Assembly (NCBI GenBank): GCA_020283715.1
Contig: JAIQCW010000008.1
Span: 1 to 13,405, forward strand
Direction: 5' to 3'
Source: Cytauxzoon felis
Taxonomy: Eukaryota > Apicomplexa > Aconoidasida > Piroplasmida > Theileriidae
DNA length: 13,405 nt
A program made the position numbers and the translations under genes. The notes beneath the pieces are model-generated. The model was not told the origin of the DNA and did not search any database. It was given only the letters and a program-made list of their open reading frames with translations. Positions 2,931 to 13,405 of the stretch are shown piece after piece (position 1 is the first letter of the stretch; each line of letters opens with the position of its first letter).

Positions 2931-3424
2931 CTGAAAATATTTTGAAATATTCATGGTATAAAACACCATAAATAACAGGTTATAGGGATAAAAACACCAT
3001 TTACACTACATTTTAACAATCTATTGATGATTGAGAAGTGAATACAATATATACTACTACATATACCGACATGAACTGAAGTTAGTACCTATATAATACT
3101 TATAATAGTACTAATTATATATACTTTAATAAATTATTATAATATTATTAGAAGATTGTAAATGATTGAGAGAAGATGAATATTGTAATTATCATTCAAT
3201 TAATTTGTATATTATTATAGTATATAACCTCGGGTGGATTACCTGTAGCTGATCTACGGGAAGCGAAGGGATAACTAAATAGAAGAGCTCCATGCAATGG
3301 AAAAGATGGACTTCAAGTGGAACGACTAGTGAAATGACCTGGATTTGATCATAATAATATTCGATGGATTAGCATCACTTCACTCATTTGATTAGCTCAT
3401 AATTTGTATAATAAATTTCTACTT
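2931..3424. other. Intergenic region: upstream flank of the modular gene and one element arm
   Basis: About 490 bp lie between the acceptor of the modular gene and the stop of the next minus-strand gene. It should hold the missing first exon and promoter of the modular gene. On the minus strand a candidate first exon runs 3072-3018 (ATG, 18 codons, then a weak GTTAAA donor), which joins in phase to the acceptor at 2931. This is not convincing without a transcript. Bases 3227-3322 hold an element arm. The rest is AT-rich and I see nothing else in it. Confidence 0.5.
3227..3322 (+). repeat. Foldback-element arm (R type), locus 2, solitary
   Basis: It starts with the box ACCTCGGGTGGATT, continues through AGCTGATCTACGGGAAGCG and TAAATAGAAGAGCTCC, has the hairpin CCATGCAATGG, and ends with a second box, GGACTTCAAGTGGAA. 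No inverted partner is visible nearby. It lies between two minus-strand genes and touches no recognised exon. Its short reading frame is broken after ADLREAKG. Confidence 0.85.
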
Positions 3425-4158
3425 CTATTCACTATCTGGGTCTTTATAATAGTCTCCTAGGAACAGGAAATATGGGTGACTTGGTAGATAATTTTTTAAT
3501 AACCAATCTGGTCCACGTTCCTGATGAAATGTGAAATTAATGATAATTCAACATACACGTCTGCGACGGTCTAGATATCTAGTAATTGGATTTGTATTTT
3601 CAGCCAATTCACGTTCCTTTGCAGCCTCAATCCATTCTTTTGTATAACGTTTGGGTTTAATACCTGTAAATGTGATGATTATATTATCAATTAGAAATAT
3701 CATTCATAGAATAATGACATCGTCAACCAACCAATGAGGAACGAATTTTGTAATAGAAATGCTAGTGTAAAGAGTACAACTATGCAAGGTAATGCGGTAA
3801 TATGTGTTGGATATTGTAATAACCAAGCTACCCACGCACGATGTTGTCTACCGAATTCACCAACGAGTACTGTATGGAATACACCGGCGGGACGCAATGT
3901 CCAATGTTCCCAATTATATCTGTGATTATATATAGGTTTAACATTGCGATATTTCTTTGGTGTTCCATCTTCATTAAATTCTCTTGGAGGTGGTGGTGGT
4001 AAATTATGTACCGGAGGCAAGGATGCGAAATTACGACGACCAAGTGTACTTACTATAAAATTAGGGGGAAAATATATTTATAATAAATGAATAGCAAAAA
4101 TACCATCGAGTATATATGGACGTAATATGATACAGCGACCCAGACGTATAAAATACAT
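3425..4158 (-). CDS. Small single-span membrane protein, probably mitochondrial, 4 exons, 192 aa
   Basis: I join exons 4158-4104, 4052-3732, 3663-3557 and 3520-3425 on the minus strand. Introns are 51, 68 and 36 nt with GT/AG ends, and all phases fit. The ATG at 4158 is the first after an in-frame stop. The N-terminus (MYFIRLGRCIILRPYILD) is basic and hydrophobic without acids until residue 18, as in a mitochondrial presequence. A proline-rich stretch (about 36-41) and an aromatic/basic region (NWEHWTLRPAGVFH at 65-78) follow. One hydrophobic span lies at about 103-125. The tail is charged (IKPKRYTKEWIEAAKERE) and ends with HPYFLFLGDYYKDPDSE. Such small proteins often belong to the divergent apicomplexan respiratory chain or ATP synthase, but I do not recognise the family and that role is inference. 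It is not in an operon; about 230 bp separate it from the helicase upstream. Confidence 0.8.
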
Positions 4159-4385
4159 TTTGAAATTCCAATAAAAATAAATCTGGCGGTTTCACAAATT
4201 TTCTAAAAATATAATACGTAATACATTTTATAAATGAATATAACTTCAATATAAATTATAAGTTCTATAATTTATACTAAAAAATCCACATCACAGTATA
4301 TACGGCACACTGAGTAATAGGGCACAGGTAGACAATAAATAATACGGGAGAATCTTATAACATATATATACTTTTTATTATTAAA

Positions 4386-7300
4386 TTATGATTTTACATC
4401 TGATTTGAACCAATTTGGTACATAATTTACAAGCCATTCATTAGTAATCTCTGTCACATTGTGTATATACACCCTTTTTGTACGAGTACAGTCGTTATAC
4501 ATTATAAAACTGCATATTCATAACTAACATCTAGATAAACATACTTCGGTAACGGCTGTCTGTTGAATAAGACCGATGAAGGATGGATAAACACCTCGTG
4601 ACTATTCACCTAAATATCATTTATGATCCTATATTATACAACCTTCAGTTATCATTCCAAAGTCAGTCCTGCCGTCAGCTCTTCCAATTACATATCCCTG
4701 AAGGGTATAGCCACTCCCAGAGATCGTGGCAGAAGCTTAGTGAATGGACCTCAAGTGGAGTACCCGTAGCTGATCTCAGGGAAGCGGAGGGTGAGGTAAA
4801 TGAAAGAGCTGTCTGCAAGACCAACGGTGGTTGTAACCTCAGGTGGAAGAAAATTAAAGATGATTTGGATTAATATGTTAACGTACGTGTGTAATGTAAG
4901 ATTTTTTATTTGATGAGAGTTTGGCGGAATTGATCCAATTGGCTTTACAGAGGCATTTTCTAACATTATCCCAATGTGATGGATCTTTACATTTGGTTAT
5001 ATTGATTAAATTTATGGGTGGCATCATCATTATCTTAACCAATTGTTCTCTTATGTCATTTGCCTTCTTAAACGCATTGTTATTAAAACCAAATTGACTA
5101 CATACAATATCCTTACGGGGGGCCTAATAGTATTAATAATTAATCCTATTTGAAAGAAGGGAGCTGTGTATATGACTTCTAATACCTGCCCCATCTGAGG
5201 TCTTCCCACACGCCGTGGAGGCCTTCTCTATTTACCTCCCCCTCAAGCTCCCGTAGATCGCTCTAGGGTATTCCACTTCAGCTTGAGGTTACATCCTCTA
5301 CACCTCTGCCACGATCTCTGGGAGTGGCTATACTCTTTAGAGGAAGGTAATTGGAAGAAGGCTCCATGCAATGGCAAGATGACCTCAGGTAGAAAGGCAA
5401 AACTACATGTAGTGCCCATTATTGTTGTATGAACATACATTCTCCCAGATGTTATAGAAATTTAGTAGTGTGAGATGATCACCAGTATTGTGCGATAGAT
5501 TTTTTCTTAATTTAATTGCATTTAAATCTAAATTTTTTATTGATATTTTACCCCATCCCCACAAACCTCCATCGAAAAATGACATTTCAGTTGATAGCAT
5601 GGATACGATGGTTAGTATTTCAGATACACATTCGAATTCTATTGATGTTAACAGTAATTTTGAGTGTATTGGTACCAATGGTATCTTCCCCATCATTATA
5701 CTATAGATTTTTTAAAAATAAAATCAAAATATATTAATTAACATACCCAAAATCAGTTAATTCACCTTTAGATGATATCGCACCCAATTTATATAATGTT
5801 ATTGCTGCTGATAATATATTATTTTTATAGGGCGGATCTATATATGGGAAATCTATGGGGTTATTTATCCCCATCATCTATAGTGATTTTTTTCAATATA
5901 TAAATATGAACATACTTTTAATTCTAAATATATATTAGATACATCAACACATTGAATTTCTGGTATTGTATGTTTCATCATTTTATTGTAAGATTCAATT
6001 GTATACAAGCGATAAACCTTGCCTATATAGAAATATTTAATAGACATAGAAACTACAACCAGAGGTACAATCCTAAACGATCTACTACAACACTGTTGCA
6101 TACACCTCCACCCGATGTCGTCTTGCAGACAGCTTCTCTATTTACTTCCCCCTCCGCTTCCCTGAGATCAGCTGCGGGTTCCACTTGAGGTTACATACTC
6201 ATTAACAACACTTCAGCCACGATCTCCGGGAGTGGATATACTCTTTAGAGATGGGTAATTAGAAGAGCTGACGGCAGGACGGACCTCAGGTGGAGAGGCT
6301 CCATGCCTAGTGGGAACTGAGGTTGTAACCTCTGGTGGAAGGGCGAGTGAAAGACAAGGTTGAAGGACCTGTGGTAGAAAATTGACTACAAGATGGTGTA
6401 TGGTAACAATAGTTGTACAATTGATGAATAAGGTTGTTTATTCGGTTGACTAACCTGGTCCGGATCTTCCAGCTCTTCCGGCCCTTTGTTCAGCGGATGC
6501 TTTTGAGGTTGGATTGATGTTTAATGCTTCAAAATTTGTCTTGGATACGAATGATCTTTGTTTAACAAGTCCTGTATCGATTACAAATTTGATATTTGGT
6601 ATTGTAATTGATGTTTCTGCGATATTTGTTGATAATACAACTTTCCTATGACTTTTTGATGTCTTTTTAAACACTAATGATTGACGTTCCATAGATAATG
6701 CAGCGTATAATACAACGATTTCTAAATCTTTCCATCTGTTAAGATTATATAAATCATCACCTAACTTTACACGTATCTTTTTTTTTATATTTTTAGAATC
6801 ACCATTGACAGCTGCATATTCTTTTATACACTTGTCAAGCATTGAACACCTATCCTTTAATAAACGCTCCATTATCTCAATATCATCTTGACCAGGGAGA
6901 AATACCAAAACATCTCCAGTAGATGATGTCAAATTCAATTGCAAAACAGCAATCATAGCAGCCTAATGAGGAATAGATATAAATAAAAAATAATATGATT
7001 CTGAAAGGTCAGGAAATATCAACTATATCTTTACAAGTAGCTGTTCCAACTGAAGTCCAATCCACCTTTCTTCCCACTGCCGTGGATGCTTCTTCATTTA
7101 GTTATCCCTCCGCCTCCCTGAGATCAGCTACGGGTATTCCACTCGAGGTTATAATCTAATCTCGACGAGATAAGCATAAAATGATAGTTTCTATGTTTGA
7201 AGGGATATCTCAATAAATATAAATCGGAATTAAATGAGGTTTATTAAACTCGATACAATCATCAAATTCCTCTTCAATGAGATATTGAGATTTAAAATTC

Positions 7301-8140
7301 ATCCATTATTAATTCCACAATCTTCAGTAGTTTCCACAGAAATTCAGGAATTCCTTCAAATTTTGGAGGTAAATCGAAACTAGTGGAAAACAGTGATTGG
7401 ACCTCAGGTGGAATGCCTGGAAGCGATCTCTGGGAGCTGGAAGGGGAATAAATAGAAGAGGCGCCACGGCAGTGGGAAGAATAGTTGGATTGGACTTCAG
7501 TTGGAATGTATGGATTCAGTAATATTGAATATAGTGAACATCAAATTACCTCTATATAATCTTCATGTGGTTTTGAAGTGTAATAAATTTCAAGTGGGTA
7601 TTTACGCCCGGGTACATGTATATAGTTGGAGTTGTCAAAAAATTTACGCAACTTATTACAATCGATTGTGGCAGACATAATAATAACTTTAAGATCTTTC
7701 CTTTTAGGTAAAGCCAATTTAATTAATCCCAGTAATACATCTGATCTGATTGAGCGTTCATGAACTTCATCTATAATAACTACTGAATAATTAGATAATA
7801 TTGGATCATCTATAGCTTCTCTTATTAATATACCATCCGTTACATATTTTATACGTGTCTTGTCATTTGTTTTATTATGGAATCTTATTTTATAACCAAC
7901 TAAATCACCAACCTCTACATCCATTAATTGCGATACATATTTACATAAAGAACATGCTGCTACACGCCTTGGTTGCGTTATCACTATATTTATATCACCA
8001 TATTCTTCATATATCAACTTTGGTATTATCGTTGATTTACCACTACCTGTTTCACCTGAAATTATCAACACCTGAGAATTCTTTATCAAATTCAATATAG
8101 AGTCTGATAATCGTTGTACAGGTAATAATACATCCTCCAT
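4386..8140 (-). CDS. DEAH-box (DEVH variant) RNA helicase, 8 exons, 670 aa
   Basis: Exons on the minus strand are 8140-7550, 6962-6455, 6022-5916, 5877-5747, 5700-5439, 5111-4887, 4609-4545 and 4509-4386. They total 2013 nt with consistent phases. Motifs in order: Walker A GETGSGKST (29-37), Ia TQPRRVAA (55-62), II DEVH (124-127), III SAT (156-158), FLPGQDD (218-224), V STNIAETSIT (308-317) and VI QRAGRAGR (356-363). The winged-helix/HA2 part follows (GKVYRLYT, IDPPYKNNIL, ILTIVSMLS, GDHLTLLNFYN), then the OB-fold part with HPSSVLFNRQ (617-626) and NEWL near the end. The family unwinds RNA in splicing or ribosome assembly. With almost no N-terminal extension it resembles DHX33/DHX35-length members more than Prp22 or Prp16; I cannot pick the ortholog. 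Motif II has Val instead of Ala. Four introns (277-587 nt) contain foldback elements; the other three are 35-46 nt. An in-frame stop shortly before the ATG fixes the start. Confidence 0.95.
4655..4848 (+). repeat. Short foldback element, locus 3, in helicase intron 6
   Basis: The left part (4655-4735) is an S-type arm in reverse: TCCTGCCGTCAGCTCTTCC, then CACTCCCAGAGATCGTGG. The right part (about 4741-4848) is an R-type arm running forward: ACCTCAAGTGGAGTACCC, AGCTGATCTCAGGGAAGCGG, closing box ACCTCAGGTGGAA. The spacer is only about 15 bp. The host intron is 4610-4886, so only about 80 bp of it is not element. Confidence 0.9.
5189..5394 (-). repeat. Short foldback element, locus 4, in helicase intron 5
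   Basis: The left part (5189-5291) is a reversed R arm: CCATCTGAGGT box, the hairpin region ACACGCCGTGGAGG, CTCCCGTAGATCGCT, inner box TTCCACTTCAGCTTGAGGT. After a short spacer the S arm runs forward (about 5306-5394): GCCACGATCTCTGGGAGTGG, TATACTCTTTAGAGG, hairpin CCATGCAATGG, closing box ACCTCAGGTAGAA. It lies wholly inside the 5112-5438 intron. Confidence 0.9.
6106..6380 (-). repeat. Short foldback element with extra terminal boxes, locus 5, in helicase intron 2
   Basis: A reversed R arm (6106-6193) with TTGCAGACAGCTTCTC and CCCTGAGATCAGCTG is followed by a 25-bp spacer and a forward S arm (6215-6297) with GATCTCCGGGAGTGG and GAAGAGCTGACGGCAGGAC. Beyond the usual end, the ACCTSAGGT box is repeated in decayed form: ACCTCAGGTGGAG near 6283, ACCTCTGGTGGAA near 6328 and ACCTGTGGTAGAA near 6367. 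The R arm has a 2-nt deletion that breaks its short reading frame. It is inside the 6023-6454 intron. Confidence 0.9.
7044..7506 (-). repeat. Long foldback element with 240-bp core, locus 6, in helicase intron 1
   Basis: Both ends read inwards with the same sequence, TTCCAACTGAAGTCCAATCC, then TTCTTCCCACTGCCGTGG, so this is a clear terminal inverted repeat pair of about 105 bp (7044-7150 and 7398-7506). The core between them matches the core of the long element at 12348-12820 in the opposite orientation on the window, and in the same orientation relative to the host transcript. The host intron is 6963-7549; the exon junctions on both sides are firmly placed by helicase conservation. Confidence 0.92.
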
Positions 8141-8755
8141 TACTCAATTATTTTTAATCATCTCAACACTACATCTATACACATTTACTCTAGGGTATAT
8201 CAATACATAAAAATCCAATCACACATTAATGTTATTCTCATATATAACATAAATATATATGATCTTAAACTTATATAATTATTTATTTTATATATTCTAT
8301 AACATGAAAACAACATGTTAAGTCTGTCTACACGATTAATCCTTCCTGATGTCCAAACATACTCTTTACTACCTTATCTTCGTCTTGCAGACAGCTCTCC
8401 ACTTGAGGTCTAATTCTACTCTTCTTTCCATCTCCAACCTTATCTTCATCTTGCAGACAGCTCCTCTATTTACTTCCCCCTCCGCTTCCCTGAGATCAGC
8501 TACGGGTATTCCACTTGAGGTTACATACAACACATCCTTAGCACCATCTTCCATCATTCCCATGATAGATGATCCATCACTATCTTCACCACGATCTCTG
8601 GGAGTGAATTTACTCTTTAGAGATAGGTAATTAGAAGAGGCTCCACGCCTAGTGGAAAAGGAGTTGCATTGGACCTCAGGTGGAGAGTTGATATGACTTC
8701 GGCATATGTGATAACATGATAAAAGTATGTGTACGAGTTTACAAGATTATTATTA
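8141..8755. other. Intergenic region between transporter stop and helicase start
   Basis: Of the 615 bp, about 300 (8381-8684) are a foldback element. The 240 bp next to the helicase start (8141-8380) are AT-rich and should contain its promoter and 5' leader. No further gene is visible, and reading frames over the element arms (for example 8369-8563 minus) are explained by the repeat. Confidence 0.6.
8381..8684 (-). repeat. Short foldback element with duplicated outer segment, locus 7, intergenic
   Basis: A reversed R arm (about 8446-8523: TTGCAGACAGCTCCTC, CCCTGAGATCAGCTACGGG, TTCCACTTGAGGT) and a forward S arm (about 8586-8684: ACGATCTCTGGGAGTG, hairpin CCACGCCTAGTGG, box ACCTCAGGTGGA) flank a 60-bp spacer. 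The outer segment CGTCTTGCAGACAGCTC followed by TCCACTTGAGGT is present a second time at 8391-8409, suggesting a partial tandem duplication or a nested insertion. Confidence 0.88.
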
Positions 8756-10240
8756 TTAGAGTGTGATTTTATATTTTCTTCTCTTGGCGAATTCGAGTGA
8801 TGCAACGAGTATTGTTTGTATGAATCCAAAAGAGACAAAGAGTGGTAGTGCGCTGATCATTTTAGAATCATTAGCTTCAGTGATTGATTTATAGATGGTT
8901 GGTGTGATGATTGCAGATAATCCACCTACGAAGCTAACGAGTCCAATAATAATTGTATGTATTGATGGATCGAAAGTTTCAACAGAGAACATGATTACTT
9001 GTCCACCAAAATATGTAAAAAATAGACTGAACCATACGATTGCAATATATTTTGTAACTATATGATTTATTAATAGCATACATAAAAAGACAACTGAACA
9101 TAATGCTTCATACCATAATGTGAACATACTCCCCATTTTATCTAAAAATGGGGAGAATACTATACATGGTATAAATGTTAATGGCATTAGAATACCCAAT
9201 AATGTTCTTTGATTATCAGTAAATAATTGACTAACTGAACTCATTGTATATATTGATATCATTACAACTATAATAAATACTGATGTTAATAATAAGAAAT
9301 GATATGATAATACTGATGTTAATATTAATTTTAATTTTGATGTTGGTATATTATATTTTGATAAAAATAATTCTAATGAACTTAAATTATTATTATGGGG
9401 TTTATTATTTCCTTCTTCAATTAATTTTATATCAGAATCTATTTTATCAAATTCTAAACTAGATTTTTTATATGTTATATCTAATGCTTCATTTATTTCT
9501 TCTTGTTTATAAAACCTCATAGTGGGGTAATATAACAAATATAATATGAGGCAAACCCCAGGACATAATATTGCATATATTAACATAAGTGTAGTAAATG
9601 TTATACCAAAATGATCAAATAATAACTGCATTAATACAGGTATAAACATCCCTATTGATGTTGATGCTGATAATACTGATGTTATAAATAATTCACTACC
9701 AGGATATAATATAACTGCATTTAATGATGAATAAATTATGGGGTCCATTCCCAACCCTAATAAAATTGCACCAATATTATAATAATTAAATGTTTCACAT
9801 GAAAATGCAATCAATATCATCCCACAAAACATTAAAAATGACCCCATAACTGCTGTCAATTTCGCACCCAAAAATGAATTAAAACAACCAGCAAATGCTG
9901 ATGACATTAATACTGATGCATTTATAATATTATATATATAATTTATAGATTCATTCTGCTCTATACATAAATATGGCTGCTCTACACCATCAATTATCAA
10001 TGGACCCTCCACACCATCACATAACCATACAAAAGCACCAGATCTCACAAGCATGTGATAAAATGGGGCAAATCCCCACATAAATCTTGATAATGTTAGC
10101 ATACCATAAATACCGACGATAAGAAATTGAGTTCTAGATAATCCATAACGTAAAGATTGTTTAGTAACATCACAACCTTCTTCAGTAGTTACTTGATCAT
10201 ATATACTATCTTTAAGACGGATTCTACATTTATGTTCCAT
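8756..10240 (-). CDS. Major facilitator transporter, ApiAT/SLC43-like, 12 membrane spans, 494 aa
   Basis: This is a single uninterrupted frame, with ATG at 10240 and TAA at 8756-8758. A TTG codon 12 nt upstream extends the frame but is unlikely to be used. Six hydrophobic spans, a long charged central loop (about residues 235-290, with KKSSLEFDKIDSDIKLIEEG) and six more spans make a 6+6 MFS layout. Near the N-terminus the segment RFMWGFAPFYHMLVRSGAF followed by WLC fits what I recall of apicomplexan amino-acid transporters (ApiAT, formerly NPT): a W and a GA-x-x-WLC at the first outer loop. These import amino acids across the parasite plasma membrane. The substrate cannot be read from the sequence, and other MFS groups are possible. 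The C-terminus is short and basic (AKRRKYKITL). It is intronless, unlike its neighbours. Codons near the 3' end become rich in CTC, TTC, ATC and GCC. Confidence 0.9.
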   Translation of the reverse strand: MEHKCRIRLKDSIYDQVTTEEGCDVTKQSLRYGLSRTQFLIVGIYGMLTLSRFMWGFAPFYHMLVRSGAFVWLCDGVEGPLIIDGVEQPYLCIEQNESINYIYNIINASVLMSSAFAGCFNSFLGAKLTAVMGSFLMFCGMILIAFSCETFNYYNIGAILLGLGMDPIIYSSLNAVILYPGSELFITSVLSASTSIGMFIPVLMQLLFDHFGITFTTLMLIYAILCPGVCLILYLLYYPTMRFYKQEEINEALDITYKKSSLEFDKIDSDIKLIEEGNNKPHNNNLSSLELFLSKYNIPTSKLKLILTSVLSYHFLLLTSVFIIVVMISIYTMSSVSQLFTDNQRTLLGILMPLTFIPCIVFSPFLDKMGSMFTLWYEALCSVVFLCMLLINHIVTKYIAIVWFSLFFTYFGGQVIMFSVETFDPSIHTIIIGLVSFVGGLSAIITPTIYKSITEANDSKMISALPLFVSFGFIQTILVASLEFAKRRKYKITL

Positions 10241-10989
10241 TTTGAATAACAAAAGATAATATTATTTATAATTTCAATTATATATACGCAAATCAATTTA
10301 ACAATGCGATAATTATTTGTTACATATTAAATATATAGATAGACATGTAATGATATGTTCATGTGAATCGGTAATATTAAAACCGATAACATATCTTATT
10401 ATTAAATTTATAAAAATGAAATACAATAATACAAATCTTTTTAACTGCAATTAAAATGCAAATTATAAAAATCTAGAGATAAAAATAGAATAATACTCTC
10501 CTTTAATTTATTAACTACACAAATGACAATTAAACAGTAGAAAACATAAATTTTTTAAAGTATATAAAACATTAAACAGATTTATTTATCAATGATAATG
10601 TCTATATACAATTACATCAAACATTCATATATTCACTTCATTTATTACATGTATGTGTCAGTATATAAAGATCCATGTAGCCAAAGTAGGGCTATCTTAC
10701 AGATACATAAAATAATATATAGATCATTTTACACTACAAAAATTGCATAACATTATACATCATATTAAATTATAATAAAAACAGTTCAATAATTTGTCCG
10801 ATAAATAGTTACAATATTTATATTATTATTATAAAGATTCTATGAATTAATATAAAATCCATCTTAAATCTAGAATTTGTCTAATATATAACATGTAAAT
10901 TTTTAGATTTTAATAATATTAATGTGTACATTTAAATATTTTATCATCCATCGTTTATATATTATTAGACATATTATATACCTCTTCTT
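10241..10989. other. AT-rich intergenic region, no gene seen
   Basis: About 750 bp lie between the transporter start and the stop of the next minus-strand gene, the longest element-free stretch without coding in the window. It should contain the transporter promoter and the 3' flank of the upstream gene. A small patch at 10675-10705 is less AT-rich and can form a short GTAGCC/GGCTAT hairpin. I found no tRNA, no plausible exon chain and no copy of the dispersed element. Confidence 0.55.
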
Positions 10990-11671
10990 CTACCAACAAT
11001 ATTTATCCCTAGAGGATTTTACACGTTCATTTAATCTATCTTCGGCCGTCATTGTACTATTTACCTTTTTTGTGACTGTTTTATATCCCCACATACCAGT
11101 CTTCTCACGTAATGTTACTAGTTGAGATGACCTCTTGAGAGTTTTAAGAGCCTCTAATTCATCATTATCTTGAATATCCTCAAGTTTTCCTATAATATAA
11201 TTTTTATATTGATATAAATCAACTAACGTATATAAAATTGAGTAGTAGTTATCAAATCATTACTAAATGGCTGATCTATACACAATGTACGATGACTTAA
11301 TATACTTTCTATAACGCGTTCCTCATTTAAATGTGTTAATGGATGTTTAATGATCAATAAATCACCGCACTTAGCTTCTTCTAAAAATTTAGTTTCAAAT
11401 CTATAGAAAATTTATAGAGAGTATAGAAATTCATGTATTGGTAGCCTTGTATACACTTAAATAACATTCTTTCAACTTACCCTTGTATAGTTTTTCCTGT
11501 AGATAGTATTCTACCAGTGCCCAGTGTCTGTTTGGAGGAATCATCATTAGTACCACTTTCATTATTATTCGATGACTTTTTAATCTTCAGTCCTTTAGCT
11601 TTTGATACACCTTTCAATTTCAATTTTCCACCAATTTTGCGATTGTATATATCACCGGTTGATGATGTCAT
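10990..11671 (-). CDS. Conserved protein of unknown function, 3 exons, 187 aa
   Basis: Exons are 11671-11481, 11400-11228 and 11189-10990 on the minus strand. The 80- and 38-nt introns have GTAAGT and GTTAGT donors and TATAG acceptors; the joined length is 188 codons with consistent phases. The start ATG is followed by a short polar segment, then a Lys-rich stretch containing KLKLKGVSKAKGLKIKK, which resembles the start of FAM32A-like proteins, though the rest does not. Next come GTGRILSTGKTIQGFETKF and a compact domain with GDLLIIKHPLTHL, ERVIESILSHRTLCI and PFSNDLITTTQFYIRK. A helical basic tail contains LREKTGMWGYKTVTKKVNS and ends DRLNERVKSSRDKYCW. I think this layout recurs as an uncharacterised protist protein, but that is memory, not a search. 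No signal peptide or membrane span is visible. It is divergent from the gene starting near 11875. Confidence 0.85.
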
Positions 11672-11874
11672 TATTACGATATATAAGCGTCATTGAAGAC
11701 GAAGCATCTTCAACTCTATAGAAATTAAAGTTGAAAATTTTCAAAGACAAATTAATAGAATATTTGTCATTAAAATTTCATCCATTAATATGTATAACTT
11801 ATCCCCAGTATATATTATTTACACCTTTATATACACCTTCAGTATTCCAATATACACATAAATGGTAATTGTAG
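11672..11874. promoter_or_regulatory. Divergent promoter region with a 14-bp palindrome
   Basis: The two genes on either side point away from each other, so this 200-bp segment must hold both promoters, and possibly the first exon of the plus-strand gene. It contains the perfect palindrome TTGAAAATTTTCAA at 11731-11744 and, overlapping it, an inverted pair TTCAAC (11709-11714) and GTTGAA (11730-11735). In DNA this AT-rich a palindrome can arise by chance, so a binding site is only a suggestion. Confidence 0.3.
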
Positions 11875-13405
11875 TGGAGATTGGGATTCTTCTTGAAAGT
11901 TACCAATGGAATCTTGAAGGATGATGTTCAATATGTATATATAAGAGTAATGATGTATAATATAGTTACAAATGGTTATTTTGTTAATGGTATTAACAAT
12001 ACGAGGATAAAATTATATCCTCAAGTATTAGGTATACATAAAGTACATGAACATAATTTATGTAATGCCCTTAGAGATTTTGGTCTAATTATTAAATCTG
12101 ATGTGTATGTTCAATCCTCTTTTATATCTCATCATCAATACTTATAGGAAAAATGTATTGTTGAATTATAACTACGATTTCCTTAAATTCATTCATCTCA
12201 TGAGATCAAGTGAAATCTGTATGATCGCACATGGATACTCACTACTCCAACTCAATGATCTCAAATGGTGGGATCAATTCACCAATATCGTAGCCAATGT
12301 ACGTCTATACACATAATATAAAAGAAATTATGTTGTAACTAACTCGATTCCACTCTTACTCTCCTTTTCAACTTGCCGTTCTTTCCACTAGGCGTGGCGC
12401 CTCTTCTAATTAGTTCCCCTTCCAGCTCCCGTAGATCGCTTCCAGGTATTCCACTTGAGGTCTCACATGAGGACATATTCACTAATTTCATTACTTCATT
12501 TTTACCTCCAAAATTTGAAGGAAATCCTGAATTTCTGGGGAAACTCATGAAGATTGTAGAATGACTATTGGATGAAATTCTGATATTAATACTTCATTGA
12601 AAAGGATCTTGATGATTTATTGAATTTACTGAATTCCAGTTCATTCCATATTATAATCATCGAGATATTCTCACAAACATAGATTCAGTCACTTTATACA
12701 TATCTCGCTGAGATTAGGTTTTATACCTGAAAGCGATCTACGGGAGCTGGAAGGGGAAGTAAATAGAAGAAGCCTCCACGGCAGTGGGAAGAAAGGTGTA
12801 GTATTGTACCTCAGGTGAAATGGACCTTGATTATATGATATATATTATATTATAGTGTTTGTATGATATGGATGGTAAAGAGATATCTGGATTTATATAT
12901 AGTTTATCTAAGGTGATTAGATGTTTATATTTGATATAATTGAAATAGGTATATAAATATAAGCATTCATTGATTTGTAAATTGATTGATGAATCGACAT
13001 CATGGATAAGGCATGCATCACCATCATCATTATCATTATTAAGTATATTGAATTTATATTAATATAAAATATTATATAAATTTAGTTAAGACTGTTACAA
13101 ATTTAAATTTTGATAGGAAATATTTAAATTTATTGAATAAACGTGCTATTGAATTAATTAATGAATTGAATATTGTTGATGTTGTTTTTTTTAGTATGTT
13201 TATTTATTATTTATTTATTATAAATTTTAGTGACTTCTAATACTGAAGCTCGAAATCGTGATGTTAAATTATATAATAAATTATGTATACGATGTATTGA
13301 ATTAATTAATCATATTGAATTACATCAATTACGTGCTATTGGTTTGTTGATGGTTATTGATTTATTATTACTACTCTTTTTATTACACCACCCCCTTCAA
13401 TACTT
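11875..13405 (+). CDS. HPR-type helical-repeat protein, probably mitochondrial RNA-binding, 3' partial
   Basis: Exons inferred: 11875-12104, 12148-12298, 12856-12912, 12949-13042, 13086-13193 and 13231 to the edge (or to a donor at 13353). Introns are 43, 557, 36, 43 and 37 nt and every phase fits. From about 12185 the product is a chain of roughly 37-residue helical units: MRSSEICMIAHGYSLLQLN, DGKEISGFIYSLSKVYKYK, SPSSLSLLIKTVTNLNF, then KRAIELINELNIVDVVFF and RCIELINHIELHQLRAIGLL. This spacing and the EIS/SLSK pattern are those of heptatricopeptide (HPR) repeats. In apicomplexans these often come with a C-terminal RAP domain in mitochondrial RNA- or rRNA-binding proteins; any such domain would be beyond the window. 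The start is uncertain: an exon 11790-11807 (ATG, six codons) joins in phase to the acceptor at 11874, while the ATG at 11862 runs into a stop. The 557-nt intron holds a long foldback element. Confidence 0.82.
12348..12820 (+). repeat. Long foldback element with 240-bp core, locus 8, in intron 2 of the HPR gene
   Basis: The left arm (12348-12463: CCACTAGGCGTGGCGCC, CTAATTAGTTCCCCTTCC, GTAGATCGCTTCCAGG, TTCCACTTGAGGT) is inverted relative to the right arm (12722-12820: AGCGATCTACGGGAGCTGG, hairpin CCACGGCAGTGG, box ACCTCAGGTGAAA). The core (about 12500-12722) shares long stretches with the core of the 7044-7506 element, beginning CCAAAATTTGAAGGAA and ending near TCTCGCTGAGATTAG. It fills most of the 12299-12855 intron; exon phase is 0 on both sides. 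Confidence 0.92.

Follow-up and report, generated by a model that had tools for sequence, protein, structure and literature searches.

Five long introns in a 13,405-nt stretch of the Cytauxzoon felis genome (hereafter the window) each contain one copy of a structured repeat, which raises the question of whether this element creates introns or enters introns that already exist. Theileria genomes have been called compact, with average intron lengths of 64–76 nt in orthologous sets (PMC2612703). Our analysis makes it probable that a non-autonomous repeat has inserted into pre-existing introns and intergenic spaces of this piroplasm genome, enlarging the introns that received it.

In the assembly used (8.62 Mb in 181 contigs), the window corresponds to contig 5; it was analyzed together with 200 kb from three long contigs, for a sample of 213,405 bases. 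The G+C content of the sample was 30–35%; the published values for C. felis are 31.8% G+C and 9.1 Mb (PMC3748084). Masking of the repeat by similarity yielded 98 loci of 95–659 nt with 20-nt margins, covering about 13.6% of the 213,405 bases. Genes were predicted with a simple gene finder self-trained on the sample sequence, which settled on donors including GTATGT and GTAAGT and on a T-rich acceptor whose last bases are mostly TAG or CAG. This gene finder fuses same-strand neighbors and ignores stops in split codons, and it penalizes masked bases as coding, so that by construction no element could be assigned to an exon. Intron tallies refer to the 254 of 270 predicted introns for which both neighboring exons were at least 30 nt long. 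The features of the window that matter here, with element halves named by class (W, X, Y and Z), are as follows.

770–930, unstranded: partial element, single X2 half at 869–906
3234–3320, unstranded: partial element, single X1 half at 3248–3285
4404–8140, minus strand: DEAH-box RNA helicase gene; a Theileria equi protein was the best among the matches listed (66% identity)
4610–4886, minus strand: helicase intron of 277 nt with one element (Y half 4681–4728, X1 half 4769–4806), placed by ortholog matching and splice motifs
5124–5438, minus strand: helicase intron of 315 nt with one element (X half 5225–5262, Y half 5310–5343), from gene finder and orthologs
6023–6454, minus strand: helicase intron of 432 nt with one element (X1 half 6135–6172, Y half 6218–6265), from gene finder and orthologs
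6963–7549, minus strand: helicase intron of 587 nt with a long-center element (X1 half 7095–7128, X2 half 7422–7458), from gene finder and orthologs
8330–8700, unstranded: intergenic element (X1 half 8463–8500, Y half 8590–8637)
12299–12855, plus strand: intron of 557 nt in a putative HPR gene with a long-center element (X2 halves 12403–12440 and 12732–12769), from the gene finder alone

An earlier note on this DNA had described these five introns, four in the helicase and one in the HPR gene, as holding one element each, and this description stands, with ortholog support for the four helicase introns and the gene finder alone for the fifth. Its lengths of 587, 432, 277 and 557 nt agree with ours, but the intron it gave as 327 nt measures 315 nt here. 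The gene finder did not predict the 277-nt intron, but absorbed it into a call of 896 nt (4053–4948); we judged this call wrong, together with another long call at 2931–3432 and a 20-nt call at 986–1005. After these were dropped, the remaining gene-finder introns in the window measured 36, 68, 39, 46, 38, 38, 80, 43, 36, 43, and 37 nt, close to the short introns listed earlier. The helicase was indeed hit four times, as had been pointed out, but this is less odd in the sample as a whole, where 39 of 97 predicted genes with a CDS of at least 300 nt had an element intron and 14 had two or more (some of them fused models). A search of viral contigs for relatives of the helicase exons returned none. 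Elsewhere in the window, the frame of a large minus-strand gene with repeat domains (1006–2930) appears by eye to continue at its 3′ end into the partial element at 770–930, which may provide the C-terminus of that gene.

Across the 254 introns of the 213-kb sample, no element was found in the 146 introns of up to 100 nt, compared to 66 of the 108 longer ones, a number that still counts the two long calls rejected in the window and, probably, further fused models. With four alternative settings of the gene finder, elements were present in 65 of 99, 60 of 84, 50 of 73, and 45 of 64 introns above 100 nt. The absence from short introns is partly arithmetic, given that the 72 elements for which both ends could be placed measured 105–522 nt. 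Pfam matches spanned element introns in genes for dynamin, DIS3, a WD40/PUL protein, and an Exo_endo_phos protein. Among 24 listed candidates for element-free introns above 100 nt, seven were examined against Pfam matches, and five of these lay within a match: 138 nt (TCP-1 chaperonin), 127 nt (Exo_endo_phos), 149 nt (BTB domain of a Kelch protein), and 223 and 275 nt (PEPCK). The other two were set aside, as a 235-nt candidate contained leucine-rich coding sequence and looked mis-modeled, and a 222-nt candidate fell outside its Pfam match. The generalization from the window that every intron above 100 nt holds an element is therefore contradicted by the sample, both by the proportion of 66 in 108 and by the five element-free introns of 127–275 nt within Pfam matches. 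The link between long introns and elements is real and strong, but not universal.

The boundaries of element introns bear most directly on whether the element brought the intron with it. In the 66 element introns, the stretch lacking element similarity had a median of 46 nt on the donor side (1 nt in three cases and at least 16 nt in the rest) and of 50.5 nt on the acceptor side (up to 13 nt in seven cases). Introners are recognized in part by element ends that supply or coincide with splice sites, but here only 3 of 66 introns had element similarity reaching to 5 nt or less from the donor, and only 3 had it that close to the acceptor. Introner copies also form introns that resemble each other up to and including their ends, but 20-nt stretches close to the intron ends showed no greater similarity among element introns than among 32 element-free introns of 55–100 nt (0.316 versus 0.327, and 0.345 versus 0.319). 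Intron phases 0, 1, and 2 were distributed 34/26/10 among 70 element introns and 77/44/25 among 146 short introns (P = 0.57). We detected no target-site duplication at the 72 two-ended elements over 648 combinations of length and offset (best excess, 2 observed versus 0.2 expected), nor any duplication across the splice boundaries of the 66 element introns in 105 comparisons (smallest nominal P, 0.055).

The part of an element intron not covered by element similarity had a median of about 105 nt, versus a median of 42 nt for short introns. In 10-kb bins, total intron density showed a weak increase with that of elements (rho = 0.39, P = 0.077), and short-intron density did not fall (rho = 0.05, P = 0.82); these trends lean towards intron creation, and fused models inflate them. 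Folding of 62 element introns was more stable than that of one shuffle each (−0.306 versus −0.241 kcal/mol per nt). The idea that element folding shortens the intron was not supported, as the median exterior-loop length was 20 in these 62 introns versus 17 in the shuffles.

The earlier note had proposed comparing intron positions with those of orthologs, and we did so at the protein level, with the intron positions of relatives inferred from annotated proteins rather than read in DNA. At the 587-, 432-, and 315-nt helicase junctions, neither the query protein nor any of 15 apicomplexan orthologs had a gap or insert, and at the 277-nt junction most ortholog rows joined directly, with inserts in the T. 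equi and T. orientalis rows. An insertion test was then applied to helicase, dynamin, and DIS3, chosen for clear homology, counting inserts present in at most one third of piroplasm orthologs within conserved parts. Four of the 11 minority insertion sites coincided with element-intron junctions, versus 0.18 expected (nominal P = 1.8e-5, an optimistic value given that the test was devised after inserts had been seen in alignments), and none of the eight short-intron junctions in the three genes had a counted insert. One counted junction insert was in dynamin, three were in DIS3, and none was in the helicase. All three DIS3 element junctions were thereby marked, by 11 residues in T. parva, 11 in T. 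equi, and 5 in T. parva, and the dynamin insert was a single residue in T. orientalis. By our reading, the three longer inserts, those of DIS3, open with codons compatible with read-through into a GT donor in the phase of the query. Private inserts at exact junctions are the trace that a mis-called splice site at the same places in the relatives would be expected to leave. The comparison thus gave indirect signs of introns in relatives at four of ten element junctions and, outside the count, at the 277-nt helicase junction, but no sign at the other five.

The same alignments contained other irregularities. DIS3 of T. parva and T. annulata lacked the stretch between two short-intron junctions (670 and 694), which looks like a missed exon, and the inserts or missing stretch in the DIS3 entries P0252 (T. 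parva), P0241 (T. equi), and P0250 (T. annulata) look like public annotation errors. At dynamin residue 259, the query predicted protein lacked about eight residues present in the orthologs, and that predicted intron boundary is therefore probably slightly off.

Elements were not confined to introns. Depending on the gene-finder setting, 51–72 of the 98 elements lay in predicted introns and 26–47 between genes, corresponding to 2.45–3.21 and 0.89–1.38 elements per kb of non-element sequence, respectively, or a density 2.3–3.2 times higher in introns. The suggestion that insertion is tolerated only in introns is thus favored as far as entry into existing introns is concerned, but not in its exclusiveness, given the 26–47 intergenic copies. 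Among 49 element introns with two halves, viewed in gene orientation, 23 had Y on the left and X on the right versus 11 with the reverse arrangement, a possible bias. Element density seemed regional, with none in contig 85 from 60001 to ~79600 (the first 19.6 kb sampled there) or in contig 162 at 90001–100000, and dense stretches beside them. Neighboring duplicated genes were present on contig 162 (~89700–100000; 92% over 98 aa) and contig 75 (~127300–129700; 85% over 241 aa). We sought paralogs differing by an element, and the near-identical duplicates in the sample had no element introns.

The architecture of the element proved more surprising than its link to introns. Element halves share the loop GATCTNNGGGA, and in the 172 halves selected for the exact loop the three adjoining pairs were complementary in 164, 166, and 163, versus 88, 61, and 60 after shuffling. 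As the copies are related and the shuffles ignore this, the comparison overstates covariation. A safer argument comes from how many stem types there are: when one mismatch in the loop was tolerated, the triplets were fully paired in 167 of 192 halves and comprised eight kinds, three of which occurred once or twice. A second hairpin was resolved in 57 of the 65 Y halves, and its pairs held in 56, 57, and 57 across three stem types, the third pair being invariant. The tags beside the halves are partly hairpins: among 122 tags with a GCA loop, 56 paired fully (GTCT/AGAC 42, CCAT/ATGG 8, CTCT/AGAG 5, and GCCG/CGGC 1) and 46, those of the GACG kind, did not.

Most loci (63 of 98) had two halves, 21 had one, 12 had three or four, and 2 had none. 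Both halves were head to head in all 63 two-half loci, giving an inverted terminal structure; the other 35 of 98 loci had a different number of halves. The 76 adjacent inverted pairs comprised 54 X-Y, 8 X-Z, 6 X-X, and 5 W-Y pairs and 3 with an unclassed half. Halves thus follow a class rule: X pairs with Y or Z, W pairs with Y, X pairs with X only at a distance of about 300 nt (299–323 nt in the six loci), and Y never pairs with Y (0 of 76, versus 11.5 expected by chance). Tags on the left and right were independent (21 of 70 alike, versus 19.25 expected). The arms consisted of repeated units with ragged ends, and decay of these units away from the core showed no clear trend (mean mismatches of 2.37, 2.34, 2.95, and 2.79 at ranks 1–4, with a threshold near background). 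A search of the window against Rfam gave no match at the gathering threshold.

Genome-wide, a strict half pattern had 1,770 matches, versus none for the reversed control, and about 3,500 elements is the estimate obtained when the 98 loci are scaled by the ratio of densities. A 37-base piece of the element had no match in viral contigs and none in prokaryotic contigs. RVT_1, the single reverse transcriptase family searched, matched one locus (contig 56, 73024–74436) in a 1010-aa open frame shared with a Telomerase_RBD match; this locus goes with telomerase, and we rejected a retroelement reading of it. Searches with DDE_3 (PF13358), MULE (PF10551), and rve (PF00665) gave no matches, with controls responding in prokaryotes, and piggyBac-type, Helitron, and hAT families (PF13843, PF14214, PF05699) gave none, with their controls also silent. 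These limited family searches thus revealed no source enzyme. Titles and abstract openings, with partial journal coverage, contained no description of the element, and the passages retrieved by term from the C. felis genome paper (PMC3748084) and the Tpr family paper (PMC10730637) named no such element.

We favor insertion into existing introns because splice sites are not derived from the element, phases match those of short introns, and no flanking duplication was found. The strongest support, of an indirect kind, comes from the minority inserts at element-intron junctions of DIS3 and dynamin, and the intergenic copies point the same way. The observations behind this reading are protein-level continuity at the helicase junctions of the predicted gene, unrelated intron ends, matching phases, paired stem types, and the class rule. 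Under this scenario, a non-autonomous repeat of roughly 100–520 nt, composed of two head-to-head half-modules and bearing interchangeable hairpin tags on the arms, would have spread to an estimated ~3,500 places, both introns that already existed and intergenic spaces. An intron entered in this way would keep its own splice sites and unique flanks, grow to 300–600 nt, and still be removed. Elements would be younger than the introns that house them, and copies landing in coding sequence would probably have been lost to selection. The conserved loops may be recognized by an enzyme from another source; our best guess, held with low confidence, is that copying involves an enzyme recognizing the hairpins in DNA or RNA.

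That the element instead creates introns, by entering exons and supplying splice sites as introners do, seems rather unlikely. This alternative would account for the strong association with long introns (66 of 108), for the 2.3–3.2-fold higher density in introns than between genes, and for the weak positive trend between element density and total intron density. However, the splice sites lie outside the element, intron ends are unrelated, phases equal those of short introns, no duplications were found, and inserts in the proteins of relatives suggest introns at some of the same junctions, so that the earlier note's proposal of introner-like elements creating introns is not supported. We also regard it as quite unlikely that the host maintains these elements as structured RNAs or regulatory modules, rather than carrying them as selfish repeats. 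Several paired stem types around conserved loops and the class rule for two halves would fit such a role, but structure needed for copying would likewise be conserved, copies are very many, 21 of 98 loci have a single half, and the window had no Rfam match at the gathering threshold. Growth in place without any mobile element, by local duplication and gene conversion of hairpin units, could explain the missing target-site duplication, the ragged arms of repeated units, and the independent combination of left and right tags; it is very improbable given that the same paired core is dispersed over 98 masked loci in 213 kb and 1,770 strict half matches genome-wide.

The presence of a structured repeat of ~300 nt in about one quarter of predicted introns makes intron growth separable from intron birth. 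If the element is indeed mobile, the hairpin code would suggest a copying mechanism that has yet to be recognized. Tentatively, it may even represent a new kind of repeat, with interchangeable stem-loops, conserved loops, variable stems, a class rule, neither target-site duplication nor recognized enzyme so far, and residence in about one quarter of introns.

Among known systems, introners as described in PMC9860276 are likewise short repeats abundant in introns, and terminal inverted repeats are reported there for 72 of 177 introner families assessed. In contrast, the element studied here leaves splice sites outside its limits, has many intergenic copies, and showed no flanking duplications. 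The introner elements of Amoebophrya are similar in several respects, being hairpin-forming intron repeats of an alveolate parasite with no general transposase (PMC7789003). There, inverted repeats of 8–20 nt join the intron ends and direct repeats of 3–5 nt overlap the exon/intron boundaries (PMC7789003), whereas intron ends here are ordinary and such a direct repeat was not found. The Cytauxzoon lineage lies not far from reported introner cases. MITEs are short, non-coding elements with inverted halves, located in introns and near genes, and intron-inserted MITEs are known; our element shares these features, but differs in its ragged ends and internal hairpins, in lacking target-site duplication, and in having no transposase within our limited searches. 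Foldback elements likewise have inverted arms of repeated modules around a variable center. Unlike in those elements, the tags on the two arms are independent here, and therefore pairing from arm to arm is not preserved, whereas the local hairpins often are.
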